Shown here: positions 3,493 through 17,082 of the stretch, piece after piece
How positions within the stretch are numbered: position 1 is the stretch's first letter
How the letters are laid out: each line of letters begins with the position of its first letter
Virus record (IMG/VR): IMGVR_UViG_3300035698_020925
Coordinates: 1 to 21,044 of that record
Length of the DNA stretch: 21,044 nucleotides
Origin: a virus
Strand: one strand, 5' to 3'
Notes under the pieces: model-generated
What the model was told of the DNA's origin: nothing
The model's input: only the letters and a program-made list of their open reading frames with translations
Database searches by the model: none
Position numbers and translations under genes: made by a program

Positions 3493-3915
3493 ATGCCAAC
3501 TGATCAAGATTTGAGAGATTCGAGAACATTATATGCAAAACTTGGTATTAATAAAAAGTGGAGCGGTGAAAGAAATATTTTTGACAATTGTGATTTTCGA
3601 CAAATTTCAAGAGATCGATTAAATCAGCCAATTGCATCTATTGAAGTGAAAATGATCAATAGAGAATCTGGTAAAGTTAATTTAATATATTTAAGTAAAT
3701 ATGAAAACGTTACAATTACACAAGAGTTATTTGAAGCAGCTGGAGCAAAACTTGCCCCGAAATTCTTTTTCATTTCATCTCATTTAGCAGATGTAAAGTT
3801 GCAAGACATTTGCAAAGGCATTGGTTTTGAAATGATTATAGATCGAGCTGTTTTAGTAAGAAATAGATTGCCTGTTGATGGAATACATTTGAGTTTTGTG
3901 CGTCGTTTTAAATAG
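3493..3915 (+). CDS. Unknown 140-aa protein
   Basis: ATG 3493 follows GGAGTAATAGT, so the SD overlaps the end of the previous gene. The protein has a charged N-terminal third, then what looks like an alpha/beta domain with alternating strands (IASIEVKMI, VNLIYLS, KFFFISS, FEMIIDRAVLV, IHLSFVRRF). No family recognised and no catalytic motif seen. It closes the run of genes before the structured intergenic region at 3954-4021, so it may end a transcription unit. Confidence 0.88.
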   Translation: MPTDQDLRDSRTLYAKLGINKKWSGERNIFDNCDFRQISRDRLNQPIASIEVKMINRESGKVNLIYLSKYENVTITQELFEAAGAKLAPKFFFISSHLADVKLQDICKGIGFEMIIDRAVLVRNRLPVDGIHLSFVRRFK

Positions 3916-3954
3916 TTAAAAAGTTTATTTATTGTAAATATTAAAAGTTATTTG

Positions 3955-4034
3955 CGCAAGAAGGACATAAGGTAGCTCCTTCGAAGAAGTTGTCGTCTCA
4001 ACTTTTTCTTCACTTCTTGCGTTTTATTTTTCTT
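3955..4034 (+). terminator. Structured RNA / terminator-like branched hairpin
   Basis: A 9-bp stem, CGCAAGAAG (3955-3963) with CTTCTTGCG (4013-4021), is followed by TTTTATTTTTCTT, a typical Rho-independent tail. Inside are two more hairpins: AAGG/CCTT (3969-3972 with 3978-3981), and GAAG+AAGTTG (3983-3992) with CAACTT+CTTC (3999-4004, 4008-4011; three-T bulge). The result is a three-way junction of about 67 nt. The 8-mer CTCCTTCG (3976-3983) is also a perfect complement of CGAAGGAG (4038-4045), the SD of the next ORF, so an alternative fold could hide that SD. Stems are seen in sequence; termination or switching is inferred. Confidence 0.65.
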
Positions 4035-4054
4035 AGACGAAGGAGAAATATATT

Positions 4055-4150
4055 ATGTATGATCAGAAAAATATTAATAAGTTAATGAGTCATATTACAA
4101 CTACAGATTTCGAGAATCATCCGGAACAGTGTCTTGTTTTGCCGTTTTAA
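4055..4150 (+). CDS. Small 31-aa ORF downstream of structured leader
   Basis: ATG 4055 is preceded by a strong SD (CGAAGGAG, 4038-4045, about 9 nt away). The product starts MYDQKNINKLMSHITTTDFE and ends after QCLVLPF. It overlaps the HTH ORF that starts at 4129 in another frame. It may be a genuine short protein, a leader peptide, or the 5' part of a gene broken by a frameshift or insertion. Joining it at TTGCCGTT (4139) to the second TTGCCGTT (4335) would fuse it in frame to the UvsX-like protein. The SD is strong, but the ORF is very short. Confidence 0.5.
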   Translation: MYDQKNINKLMSHITTTDFENHPEQCLVLPF

Positions 4151-4344
4151 CAGAATCTAAAATTGTTGAAATTTTTGATGGTATTGATAGTGGTAGATTT
4201 AGAACTGTTAAAGAAATTGCAGAATATTATAGTGTTCATAATAATACTATTTATTGTATTTTAAATGGAAGAACTTGGAAATGTGTGACAAATAAATACC
4301 CTATCAAAGAGTTAAAAGCAAAAGTTTCTAAATATTGCCGTTAA
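4129..4344 (+). CDS. Small helix-turn-helix protein of homing-associated type (71 aa)
   Basis: The product contains an HTH of the sort found beside phage homing nucleases and as stand-alone small proteins: LTESKIVEIFDGIDSG, RTVKEIAEYYSVHNNTI (the two HTH helices), then YCILNGRTWKCV. The ILNGRTWK ending is characteristic of these DNA-binding repeats. It probably binds DNA as a regulator or is a remnant of a mobile gene. The only nearby start is GTG 4129 with a weak GGAA upstream, inside the 31-aa ORF, so the N-terminus is uncertain; it may be coupled to, or frameshifted from, that ORF. The start and end of the ORF each carry TTGCCGTT. The HTH type is fairly clear; the role is not. Confidence 0.68.
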   Translation: MSCFAVLTESKIVEIFDGIDSGRFRTVKEIAEYYSVHNNTIYCILNGRTWKCVTNKYPIKELKAKVSKYCR

Positions 4345-4357
4345 AAAAGATTAATCA

Positions 4358-4365
4358 AGGAGACC
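4358..4365 (+). promoter_or_regulatory. Extended Shine-Dalgarno AGGAGACC of uvsX-like gene
   Basis: AGGAGACC precedes ATG 4368 by 2 nt (the core AAGGAG is 5 nt away). The same 8-mer precedes the Cas4-like gene (7137-7144) and terminase exon 1 (16207-16214), each 3 nt before a GTG. It settles the start choice for these three genes. Confidence 0.7.
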
Positions 4366-4367
4366 GC

Positions 4368-5720
4368 ATGGCTGATAATAATAAAAATTATCCAGAGATT
4401 CTCAAACAGGCTTTTGATAAGGTACTCATGAGTAAATTTGGAAACTGCGTTCCAATGGCACCACTAGTTACGTCTTTTGGAATTAAACATCTAGATGCAT
4501 TGCTTGGGGGAGGGTTAACATCAAGTGCTCCAGTTGTTTTTAGTAGTACCCCCGAAACTGGAAAATCTACTCTGGCACTTCAATTTGTATCTGTATTTCA
4601 ACGAGCTTATAAAAATTCAGTTTGTGTGTATCTCAATATTGAAGAGGCTGCAGGTGATGTTGGTTCGGCTGGTACAAATAAATCAATTGGTCTTGAGGAT
4701 AGAATTATAACGTTTGGAATTGATACTGATCGTTTTTTACATAAGCCAGTTCTTCTTAATGTTAAAGAAGTATTTGAACTTATTAATGATTTAATCTTAA
4801 TCAAACCACAAATGGAACAGAAAACAGGCGAGACATATCAAATCCTATTCATTCTAGATTCAATTGCTGCTGTTTGTAGTAGTAAAGATGCTGATGCTGC
4901 TGATCCAAATGAAGTGATTGGTTTTCGAGCTCGAGAATTGACTTTTAATTTGGCAAAGTATAAAAAAGTAATTTCAATGAATCAGATTAGTTTTATCATG
5001 ATTGATCAAGTACGTAGTAATATTTCTAGTGCATTGCAAACACCTTGGCAAAAAGCTTCAAACGAAACAACAGTTGGTAGTTTTGGAAATTTTCAAGCAG
5101 CGACTAATATTAATTCTTTAAATCATAATGTTCGACAGTGGCTTTGGTTGTCCAAAGGAGCAGTACTTAAACCCACTGATCCAATGGGAGTTGATGGTTG
5201 GGTTATAAATATTTTTTCAGAAAAGAACAAACTTGCACCATCAAAATATTCAGTACCGGTAATATTTGATAAGAAGTTTGGAATGGTTGCATTTTGGAGT
5301 GAGTATTTCTTTTTGTCTGAGAAAACCAAAACTGAACGAAAGTACTGGCCTAAAGAGAAAAAACTTCCATATCCATTATCTATTTCTACAAGTGGTAATT
5401 CTAGAATTTTAGAAGTAATGGACCCATCGACAGGAAGTATGTTATATAGAAGTGAACCATTTATGGAAAGAGTTGCTTTAAAGAAATACAATAGTGATAA
5501 GAATTTCAGATATTGGTTTGATAAAGGTATTGATATTGCAGTAGATCAGAGAATACAAGTTAATCTTTTTAGGGGTAATCCTATTGCTGATTATTCAACA
5601 ATTGATAATACTACAACTAATTTAATTGATACTGAACCTATCGCAGTAGTAGAAGAACCTGTTGAACAACCATCTGAACCTGTTGAATTTATGCCACAAC
5701 CAGCCGGTGATGTTGATTAA
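4368..5720 (+). CDS. uvsX: UvsX/RecA-like recombinase ATPase
   Basis: RecA-superfamily ATPase of 450 aa, longer than T4 UvsX (about 390). Residues 33-50 hold the lead-in typical of RecA/RadA/UvsX (TSFGIKHLDALLGGGL). Walker A is SSTPETGKST (59-68), Glu 92/93 follow the next strand (YLNIEE), and Walker B is ILFILDS (159-165). NQISFIMIDQVRSNI (205-219) matches the strand and loop that end in the conserved Gln. The tail is acidic and Pro-rich, as in many recombinases. ATG 4368 is chosen for AAGGAG 5 nt upstream; an in-frame TTG at 4335 has no SD. The role should be strand exchange in phage recombination and recombination-dependent replication. A RadA- or DnaB-like paralogue is possible but less likely. 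Confidence 0.82.
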   Translation: MADNNKNYPEILKQAFDKVLMSKFGNCVPMAPLVTSFGIKHLDALLGGGLTSSAPVVFSSTPETGKSTLALQFVSVFQRAYKNSVCVYLNIEEAAGDVGSAGTNKSIGLEDRIITFGIDTDRFLHKPVLLNVKEVFELINDLILIKPQMEQKTGETYQILFILDSIAAVCSSKDADAADPNEVIGFRARELTFNLAKYKKVISMNQISFIMIDQVRSNISSALQTPWQKASNETTVGSFGNFQAATNINSLNHNVRQWLWLSKGAVLKPTDPMGVDGWVINIFSEKNKLAPSKYSVPVIFDKKFGMVAFWSEYFFLSEKTKTERKYWPKEKKLPYPLSISTSGNSRILEVMDPSTGSMLYRSEPFMERVALKKYNSDKNFRYWFDKGIDIAVDQRIQVNLFRGNPIADYSTIDNTTTNLIDTEPIAVVEEPVEQPSEPVEFMPQPAGDVD

Positions 5721-7040: not shown

Positions 7041-7074
7041 AATAGTGTTACATTTGATAATTTACATATAGATA

Positions 7075-7122
7075 TTATATGATGTAGTTGAAATTATTTT
7101 TTAATTTTAACACATCATATAA
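7075..7122 (+). terminator. Long AT-rich hairpin upstream of Cas4-like gene
   Basis: TTATATGATGT (7075-7085) pairs perfectly with ACATCATATAA (7112-7122). Continuing inward past one bulged A, GTTGAAATT (7087-7095) pairs with AATTTTAAC (7103-7111) through one G-U pair. This leaves a 7-nt loop, about 20 bp in all. The stem is AT-rich and its tail (ACTTTTAAT) is only partly U-rich, so termination is uncertain; RNA stability or processing is equally possible. It ends 13 nt before the SD of the nuclease gene. Confidence 0.55.
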
Positions 7123-8053: not shown

Positions 8054-8118
8054 AATTGATTGTATTTAATGTTAAACAATATATTAAATACAATATGTTG
8101 TTTAACATTGGAATTTTA
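8051..8118 (+). repeat. Two interleaved inverted repeats (A-B-A'-B'), terminator or pseudoknot
   Basis: A = TTGTATTTAAT (8060-8070) is complementary to A' = ATTAAATACAA (8083-8093). B = AATGTTAAACAA (8068-8079) is complementary to B' = TTGTTTAACATT (8098-8109). Farther out, TAAAATT (8051-8057) matches AATTTTA (8112-8118), so the B fold can be extended. T-rich sequence follows (TTTTATTTTTC). The order A-B-A'-B' with a 3-nt overlap lets the RNA form either stem, or partly both as a pseudoknot. Terminator function is inferred from the position just after the nuclease gene. Confidence 0.6.
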
Positions 8119-8162
8119 TTTTTCGTTAGGTTTCGGGGTGTTAGAAATAGGAGTTAAAATTA

Positions 8163-8963
8163 ATGGCTTATTTATTAGAAGTAGGAATTCGCCGAATTAG
8201 TGATTTGAAAAATATTGATATATTATTTCAAAAATTTAAATTGGCGAAAGATAAATCAACAAAAGAAAAAGTATTGCGTGAGATGGAAGTTGAATTAGAA
8301 AAGATTTTCAAAGTTCATGTTGTTATTGATTTTCACTATTTTGGATTGCATGCCGATAATTTTGCCATTCTACCTTATATAAAACCTAATAAAAATGTTA
8401 AGATTAAAGAGAAAGAAGATTTTGCAAAGTTTATTAATGTTAAACGTGTTGATCTTATATTTGGAAATGATTTCATTAAACAACATACTCCTAGAGAACT
8501 TACAGCAATATTATTACATGAGATCGGGCATTTGATTAATTACTTATCAAGAGCAACTTTTTTATTTCTTAAAATTATATATCCAATTTATTTAGTTACC
8601 CGTGGACTTCGAATGATACCAATTATAGGAGGTATTTTTTACCCACTTTTTTTAATCACATCAAGAAGTTTGCATTTTGTAGAACATATTGGTGAGTATC
8701 AAGCAGATGTGTTTGTAGCTAAATATGGATATGGTGACGAACTTATTTCTGCAATTGAAAAATGGAAGAAACAGGATTCGCAAATTAAGAAAGGAACGAC
8801 ATTACTTCAACGTTTATCAATGTTGCAAGAAATATTAAGTGGAACAAGTCATCCAGCAAATAAAGATCGAATTTTAAAAATTGCTGAAGTTATGAAAAAA
8901 ACTTATTTAAAACAATATGGTGGGAAAAAAATGCAGAAACTTTTAAATCAATATAAGGTGTAA
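8163..8963 (+). CDS. M48-like (HtpX/Ste24-type) membrane zinc metallopeptidase
   Basis: 266-aa protein with the zinc motif HEIGH (119-123) in an amphipathic helix (ELTAILLHEIGHLINYL). Two hydrophobic segments follow, about 132-147 and 152-167, and then EHIGEYQADVFVAKYG, where Glu178 and Asp182 match the third zinc ligand and following Asp of M48 peptidases (E...D..A). The catalytic set is therefore complete. The first 110 residues are a charged, mainly helical region without a signal peptide. ATG 8163 has a modest SD (AGGAG about 10 nt upstream). It lies 2 nt before a large, probably structural gene. It could process virion or host membrane proteins; the substrate is unknown. Confidence 0.8.
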   Translation: MAYLLEVGIRRISDLKNIDILFQKFKLAKDKSTKEKVLREMEVELEKIFKVHVVIDFHYFGLHADNFAILPYIKPNKNVKIKEKEDFAKFINVKRVDLIFGNDFIKQHTPRELTAILLHEIGHLINYLSRATFLFLKIIYPIYLVTRGLRMIPIIGGIFYPLFLITSRSLHFVEHIGEYQADVFVAKYGYGDELISAIEKWKKQDSQIKKGTTLLQRLSMLQEILSGTSHPANKDRILKIAEVMKKTYLKQYGGKKMQKLLNQYKV

Positions 8964-13836: not shown

Positions 13837-13866
13837 AGCATTTTGCCGTTCAATTTAAAAATAATT
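13837..13866 (+). repeat. Copy 2 of repeated intergenic leader element
   Basis: The exact 17-mer of 14-30, located one base after the stop of the tail-tube-like gene and in the 53-nt gap before the baseplate J-like gene. The following bases (TTTAAAAATAAT) match copy 1 apart from a 5-nt indel. The placement between stop and SD in both copies argues for a shared control site such as a late promoter. Confidence 0.6.
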
Positions 13867-16217: not shown

Positions 16218-16730
16218 GTGAATACAACAACACTTACAAAAGAACAACAGGCAATTGAATTTTTTAAATGTAGAAGAAATCCATTTTACTTCATATACAA
16301 TCATGTTAAAATCCCGGAAATTGGTGGTGAGCAATCATATACCCCTGATTTAATGCATTCCAAATTGAGACAAACCATTAGAAGTGCTATTGTGCAGCAT
16401 AGAGTATTGCTTATGGCAACAAGACAACTAGGTAAGTCAACTGTTATAGCATGTTTAATAGAGTGGTGTTGTAACTTTTTTCCAAGGAATTCTGCAAATA
16501 TACTTAATGCGAATAAAGAATATTCTCTTGCAAATCTACAAATGATTAAATATATTCACGAACAGTTGCCCGGGTTTTTAAGAGTACCGCTGAAGTATAA
16601 AGGGGAAAGAAAGACATTTATGGAGTTTGAGAATGGCAGCATTATAAGATGTTTCTATCCCGCTACTTCTAGCGATCCATCAGTTATAGCTCGTTCGTTA
16701 ACGTCACCAATTTTATATATCGATGAGGCT
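16218..16730 (+). CDS. terL: Large terminase subunit, exon 1 (ATPase N-terminus)
   Basis: First 171 codons of the packaging motor ATPase (T4 gp17 type). GTG 16218 follows AGGAGACC. Visible parts: the adenine-side region FYFIYNHVKIPEIG (23-36), Walker A ATRQLGKST (67-75) with the Q-L-GKS form typical of gp17-like terminases, and Walker B ILYIDEA (165-171), whose final Ala codon is the last codon of the exon. The intron lies exactly between codons (phase 0). Without splicing, translation would run into the intron and stop at TAA 16818-16820, giving a 200-residue protein with no nuclease domain. Joined to exon 2 the product is 591 aa, normal for the family (T4 gp17, 610 aa). The enzyme cuts concatemeric DNA and pumps it into proheads. 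Confidence 0.9.
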
Positions 16731-17082
16731 AGAAAAGTTTGGTCTTTCATACAGCGATGTATGTTGAAAAATTTTGTGAACTGCTGGAATATCCTTAGAG
16801 CTTGTTCAACCACAACATAACTAGAAATGGTAAGTGTGATGGTTTGAAAATGAATGAGATTGGACAATCAGCAGCCAAGTGCCTAATCATGTTGTAATTG
16901 CGACATTAATGGTAAAGGTTCAACGACTATCCCGGAAGGGAGTACACTGCAAGCGCAGCGGAAGTGCAAAACAACTTATCAATAAAAAATCATAAGTTGA
17001 AGATATAGTCTAATCTGTATGGAAACATGCAGTTGGGTTAAAGTCCCGAGTAAGAATTAGCGTTTCTTATTGAATATAAATG
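16731..17082 (+). ncRNA. Self-splicing group I intron (td-like, subgroup IA) in terL
   Basis: 352-nt intron without its own ORF. P1: exon end GAGGCT pairs with GGTCTT (16741-16746) and puts a U-G pair at the 5' splice site. P7: GACTA (16925-16929) with TAGTC (17006-17010), in the contexts TTCAACGACTATCCC and GAAGATATAGTC, both typical of phage group IA introns such as T4 td. P7.1-like CCC-GGAA-GGG (16931-16940). P8: CAACTTAT/ATAAGTTG (16972-16979, 16992-16999). P9: CTGTATG-GAAA-CATGCAG (17015-17032), a GNRA loop. The intron ends ...ATAAATG, with the terminal G at 17082. Removing it gives IDEA-AHIRHIAEAF in frame. Splicing itself is inferred. Confidence 0.93.

Follow-up and report, generated by a model that had tools for sequence, protein, structure and literature searches.

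A Structured RNA Leader with a Three-Way Junction before a Broken HNH Homing Endonuclease Gene of a Phage

The recA/uvsX-like recombinase gene in the window (the whole 21,044-nucleotide stretch of viral DNA that was analysed, IMG/VR record IMGVR_UViG_3300035698_020925) is preceded by an RNA of unusual stability. Positions 3954-4054 are likely to be a structured 5' leader that travels with an HNH homing endonuclease gene and represses its translation by hiding the Shine-Dalgarno (SD) sequence. The RNA would consist of a three-way junction with a GACA strand and, downstream of it, a hairpin of the SD with a U-rich strand, the two folding together. Its helices covary among six copies, copies precede intact HNH endonuclease genes, and the window copy of the gene carries a large deletion. 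The leader looks like the mobile control leader of an endonuclease family rather than a recombinase switch. Functionally it belongs to a known kind, to which the conserved three-way junction adds a new structural part.

Layout of the Locus

The features of the locus are collected in Table 1. The recA/uvsX-like protein of the window shares 47-56% identity with those of its relatives. Leaders of the I-TevI and mobE type have an internal late promoter whose shorter transcript lacks the inhibitory strand. A scan for consensus sigma-70 promoters did no better in the window than in shuffles, and this consensus may not be the promoter type of the phage.

Table 1. Positions of the leader RNA, its helices and the surrounding genes in the window.
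Feature	Position	Strand	Basis or remark
Upstream gene, 140 aa	3493..3915	+	homologue in related phage G006, 35% identity
Leader and decayed homing endonuclease gene	3916..4367	+	without counterpart upstream of recA in relatives
Three-way-junction RNA	3954..4022	+	MFE fold, match to covariance model R1, compensatory changes
P1	3954-3963/4013-4022	+	three-way-junction helix
P2	3969-3972/3978-3981	+	three-way-junction helix
P3	3983-3992/3999-4008	+	three-way-junction helix
Junction strands	3964-3967; 3964-3965/4010-4011; 4012	+	invariant GACA; GA/UC; bulged A
P4, SD-sequestering hairpin	4025..4050	+	UAUUUUUCUU (4025-4034) pairs with AGGAGAAAUA (4041-4050)
CTCCTTCG	3976..3983	+	end of the P2 loop, P2 3' strand and first base of P3; SD complement
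31-aa ORF, N-terminus of the HNH homing endonuclease	4055..4150	+	profile of four intact relatives
71-aa HTH ORF, C-terminal DNA-binding part of the same endonuclease	4129..4344	+	-1 frame
recA/uvsX-like recombinase gene	4368..5720	+	phrog_97, 4.9e-25; own SD just upstream

The Branched Fold

The initial annotation rightly described this RNA as a structured leader that contains a three-way junction, and every feature that it named is present at the position it gave. The branched stem is formed by CGCAAGAAG (3955-3963) and CTTCTTGCG (4013-4021), with a T-rich run from 4022. For positions 3940-4070 the MFE is -34.1 kcal/mol, compared with -23.3 for shuffled sequences (z -3.05; 0/200). When 104-nt stretches were tiled over the window at 26-nt steps, the one at 3953 was the most stable of all (z -6.1). 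On the predicted co-transcriptional path an early 5' hairpin, GAAGGAC/GCUCCUUC, forms first and is displaced once the 3' arm emerges, with a predicted gain of about 9.5 kcal/mol.

Rfam has no family for the window leader at either gathering or permissive thresholds. Its covariance models, those for group I introns and HEARO included, gave nothing meaningful over 3880-4380 with E up to 10, and a group I intron remnant around the leader is thus not supported. The window's own group I intron (16721-17032, 105.6 bits in Rfam) lies in terL and has no endonuclease ORF.

Leader Copies in a Related Phage

Relatives of the phage were reached by way of TerL exon 1, which gave two contigs of one phage, and then with a two-member TerL alignment, which gave several syntenic phages. 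Direct scans with DNA or single proteins (recA, the 766-aa gene, TerL exon 2) detected no relatives in viral or genome contigs, and the RNA pattern of the leader had no match in the viral contigs. An alignment of recA with distant phages yielded relatives at about 25% identity only.

In the related phages G006 and G007 (181 and 257 kb) group I introns contain, or lie beside, several genes for HNH endonucleases of 180-280 aa. Three intact endonucleases are preceded by the same layout as in the window: L143 (G006, 77 kb), L154 (G007, 240 kb) and L157 (G006, 60 kb). Each of these leaders, folded alone by free energy, shows P1, the GACA strand, a short P2, a P3 of about 10 bp, a U-N-A strand and an SD hairpin. 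The first four leader sequences are only 56-78% identical.

A covariance model, R1, was built from the junction of the three intact-endonuclease leaders only, with the window left out. Run on the window with filters off, R1 ranks 3955-4025 first (18.4 bits, E 0.0058), with a spurious runner-up at 2139-2199 close behind (16.4 bits, E 0.019); the location of the leader directly before the same gene adds weight beyond the E-value. R1 also found two further copies, both in L177 of G006, in two more introns. A second model, R2, includes the window copy, and its score for the window, being circular, is not used as evidence. R2 did not find the leader in 12 named phage records, among them SPO1, the phage of I-HmuI. 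HNH endonucleases distantly related to the protein occur in 873 named-phage records, and blastn did not find the leader in this collection. At the related-phage loci Rfam reports only Intron_gpI, and nothing at the leaders.

Compensatory changes in related phages, which the initial annotation had set as a check, are present. The six copies were aligned by hand from their individual folds; 93% of the cells are paired, compared with 40-56% when the partners are slid. Compensatory changes occur in 14 of the 20 base pairs and none of 500 shuffles reaches these values, the independent events being few, as a single phage kind (G006/G007) supplies five of the copies and the window is the only independent lineage. 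All six copies share without variation the GACA, its single-stranded state, the third-strand U and A, and the bulged A of the junction.

Complementary flanks enclose the leader in L143 and L177 (CAACTTGAA/TTCAAGTTG for L143), and it is closely followed by a conserved GATATAGTC strand that is read, from its sequence, as the P8 loop. The two group I introns of L177 (541-960 and 1295-1690) keep leader, SD and start codon, with an endonuclease ORF of <20 codons. The L143 copy (G006:77160) was not found in G007, and the intron content of these two close relatives seems to differ.

The SD Hairpin and the Proposed Switch

Hiding of the SD was also part of the original description of the leader, and this part stands. 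Even in the branched state the SD is paired with the U-rich run at 4025-4034, and the probability that GGAG is unpaired is 0-0.02 in the window, so that the SD is held in a helix. The SD hairpin is found in five of the six copies, L177b being the one without it, and is built from quite different sequences; when only the strand opposite the SD is shuffled, the combined p is 4e-4. In the window alone P4 is not significant (42/200 shuffles; p 0.06), and it was rejected as a second hairpin significant by itself. Freeing the SD and start codon of the window leader costs 5.9 kcal/mol, which is ordinary for this phage (range 1.8-9.2).

The proposal of two mutually exclusive states falls. In it, CTCCTTCG pairs in one state with CGAAGGAG (4038-4045), the SD of the ORF that begins at 4055, and hides it; in the other state the branched fold leaves it free. 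The complement is indeed exact over all 8 nt. However, forcing this pairing gives -22.2 kcal/mol rather than -34.1, about 12 worse, and its base-pair probability is 0. An 8-nt complement of the SD also arises by chance in 3.4% of local dinucleotide shuffles and in 1% of window stretches, and in the other five copies the complement extends over only 3-4 nt. Nor does the branched state release the SD, as the hairpin of U-tract and SD is a separate downstream element that coexists with the branched fold. An attenuator or riboswitch calls for an alternative pairing that is conserved and energetically comparable; here the gap is 12 kcal/mol and the 8-mer is not conserved. Such a switch is highly improbable, and the complementarity of CTCCTTCG to the SD is judged incidental.

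The Broken Endonuclease Gene

The initial annotation took the small ORFs before the recombinase as unusual targets of a switch. By homology, both are ends of a single broken HNH homing endonuclease gene. The 31-aa ORF scores 20.9 bits against an N-terminal profile of the four intact relatives, where the best of 2000 shuffles of its own sequence reaches 8.2, with the caveat that the other ORF, when shuffled, once gave 17.7 bits on this profile. The match can be followed by eye, for example between ISRFYKHISTINFKTQPDICW at the N-terminus of the intact relatives and INKLMSHITTTDFENHPEQCL in the 31-aa ORF. For the HTH ORF the score against the C-terminal profile is 47.8 bits (best own shuffle 12.6). 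Its only strong PHROG match is phrog_59, HNH endonuclease (5e-7), and its best tblastn matches are mostly C-terminal tails of phage HNH endonucleases; it is 49% identical to the C-terminus of the Phab24 HNH endonuclease.

About 80 codons (profile positions about 31-111) are deleted from the window gene, and its halves are in different frames. HNH_3 occupies residues 51-93 of the intact L143 protein, inside the part that is missing here. The window copy thus lacks the HNH catalytic core and retains homologous N- and C-terminal parts in their order. The odd pair of small ORFs exists because the gene lost the HNH_3 region and its frame is broken. A programmed frameshift between the two ORFs was considered and rejected: no slippery site was seen by eye in the overlap, and the missing 80 codons make the question moot. 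Short HTH ORFs and tiny leader ORFs beside phage recombinases can therefore be endonuclease debris and not regulators.

A Probable Insertion Upstream of recA

In G006 and G007 nothing separates the counterpart of the window's upstream gene from recA, and the two overlap; in G006 the homologue of the upstream gene shares a stop/start ATAATG with recA (L141:1449). In G010 about 5 nt separate recA from the end of the preceding ORF. G002 has a 141-nt gap before recA, without branched hairpin or endonuclease gene. Three related phage lineages (G006/G007, G010 and G002) thus have no counterpart of 3916-4367 upstream of recA, and this segment is therefore most simply read, from the gene order, as an insertion between the upstream gene and recA. 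An HNH endonuclease gene would have entered there together with its leader, and its catalytic core would have been lost later. The recombinase, which had been counted as part of the context of the switch, simply neighbours the insertion.

Two other arrangements at recA were observed in the relatives. In G002, which has no insertion, the SD of recA lies inside a 12-bp helix, GUUAUUCCUAAU/AUUAGGAGUAAC (L099, 2420-2480, minus strand). The recA homologue of G006 is split by a group I intron that encodes a GIY-YIG endonuclease with NUMOD1 (L141, 2010-3260); the split is near a RecA motif, after DPNEIIG.

Termination, Regulation or Decay

The branched stem could instead be the intrinsic terminator of the operon that ends at 3915, the stem and UUUUAUUUUU releasing RNA polymerase and recA being read from a promoter downstream. 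The window copy has the appearance of one. Its GC-clamped stem is followed directly by 11 T in 13, and nowhere else in the 21 kb does a perfect stem of 8 bp lead directly into a T-tract, where shuffles give an expectation of 0.01. The GCGC/GCGU extension is special to this copy, and the same TTTTATTTTTC(G)TTAG also comes after another hairpin, at about 8065-8112. In the related phage, however, the same junction sits within introns, and a terminator at these places would shut off the host gene. In those five copies no U-tract follows P1, so that the combination of stem and U-tract is not conserved. Pairing with the SD accounts for the U-rich run. A strong terminator would moreover cut recA off from the upstream gene, which it overlaps in G006, and recA would need a promoter of its own. 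Termination as the explanation of the element is somewhat doubtful. For the window copy terminator and SD-hiding leader can both be true, and this leader may double as a terminator because its P1 is longer, GC-clamped and directly continued by the U-rich strand.

If the segment acts as an SD-hiding leader, it would keep translation of the endonuclease low, as for I-TevI of T4 and mobE of Aeh1, and would also keep ribosomes off the intron core. The leader would move with the endonuclease gene, in keeping with its place before intact copies inside group I introns of the related phage. The three-way junction probably insulates or holds the SD hairpin, or serves as a binding platform. The simplest role would be to insulate the hairpin from the intron; the invariant junction strand makes a platform possible.

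A more active part has been considered for the junction, in which GACA and U-N-A bind a metabolite, the endonuclease or a phage protein, and the 3' strand of an opened P1 takes up the SD. The single-stranded GACA and the bulged A are invariant in all six copies, and in all six the P1 3' strand is complementary to the SD over 4-6 nt. At equilibrium, though, this P1-SD pairing has near-zero probability, and the purine-rich 5' strands of P1 make complementarity to the SD easy. There is neither a ligand candidate nor an Rfam match, and such a riboregulator is unlikely. Rather unlikely too is the broader idea that the mobile GACA junction represents a new structured-RNA family that survives deletion of its gene and, instead of passively insulating the SD hairpin, switches it in response to a protein or ligand.

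The window copy is probably a remnant, and that its leader is by now drifting without function is a realistic possibility. The endonuclease is broken, and the G006 leaders persist in introns where fewer than 20 codons of the endonuclease are left. The helices of the window copy speak against it: all three are intact, and P1 exceeds that of the other copies in length and stability, which neutral decay does not predict.

Comparison with Known Systems

Homing endonucleases must stay quiet, as they would otherwise harm the host phage or intron splicing. RNA structure hides the ribosome binding sites (RBS) of I-TevI, I-TevII, I-TevIII and segB in T4 and of mobE in Aeh1 and limits their expression; for I-TevI, hiding of the RBS protects intron splicing (PMC2988022, PMC3014915). 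Precedents for hairpins that hide the RBS of endonuclease genes are thus found in T-even-type phages (PMC2988022). The present leader resembles those of T4 and Aeh1 in lying directly before a homing endonuclease gene, with its SD in a helix, and in occurring with both intron-borne and free-standing genes (PMC2988022). It differs from them in that a GACA three-way junction precedes the SD hairpin and the endonuclease is of the HNH type, in a distant large-phage group; repression is predicted here. In Aeromonas phage 25 a very stable fold lies just 5' of the RBS of seg43(25) and does not contain the SD (PMC2988022). The junction is similarly placed; in contrast to the single hairpin of seg43(25), it is branched and covarying and is followed by an SD hairpin. 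No precedent for a three-way junction in endonuclease leaders was found in the literature searched or in Rfam.

Structured RNA next to an HNH gene is also known from the HEARO and IscB guide RNAs, HEARO being HNH endonuclease-associated RNA. The leaders, however, have no Rfam match, and the intact protein belongs to the small HNH_3 homing endonucleases. With its HNH_3 domain the intact relative is comparable to the class of I-HmuI, I-BasI and I-PfoP3I, which have an HNH core towards the N-terminus and a C-terminal DNA-binding domain and belong to phage group I introns (PMC3428280). Unlike these, the window copy lies outside any intron and has no HNH core. A profile search of solved structures with the endonuclease matched none.

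If the leader acts as proposed, large phages would have an independent means of keeping such genes quiet, a separate covarying junction that goes with them both within introns and elsewhere. The junction would then also be a recognisable mark of endonuclease genes, active or decayed.

Other Features of the Window

Several further features were observed in the window. The gap after the Cas4-like gene (8054-8162) contains a 21-bp hairpin, and the TTTTATTTTTCGTTAG behind it is nearly identical to the TTTTATTTTTCTTAG that comes after the leader stem at 4022. The gene that comes next (8163-8963) matches Peptidase_M48; there is no room for it in relative L093, and it may therefore be a second insertion. 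Identical copies of ATATAGATATTAT lie at 1583-1595 and 7066-7078, both in intergenic gaps, a count within chance. A VSR-type homing endonuclease gene (20-472; phrog_559, 6e-29) lies close to the start of the stretch.

The repeat TTTTGCCGTTYWA is present exactly three times, always on the + strand (18-30, 4137-4149 and 13841-13853), where 0.2 would be expected even with one mismatch. The first and third copies share a longer stretch, AGCATTTTGCCGTTCAA, at 14-30 and 13837-13853. The three sites fall at the endonuclease deletion junction, before the VSR-like endonuclease gene and right after a stop codon, and the repeats are possibly a promoter or the trace of recombination.
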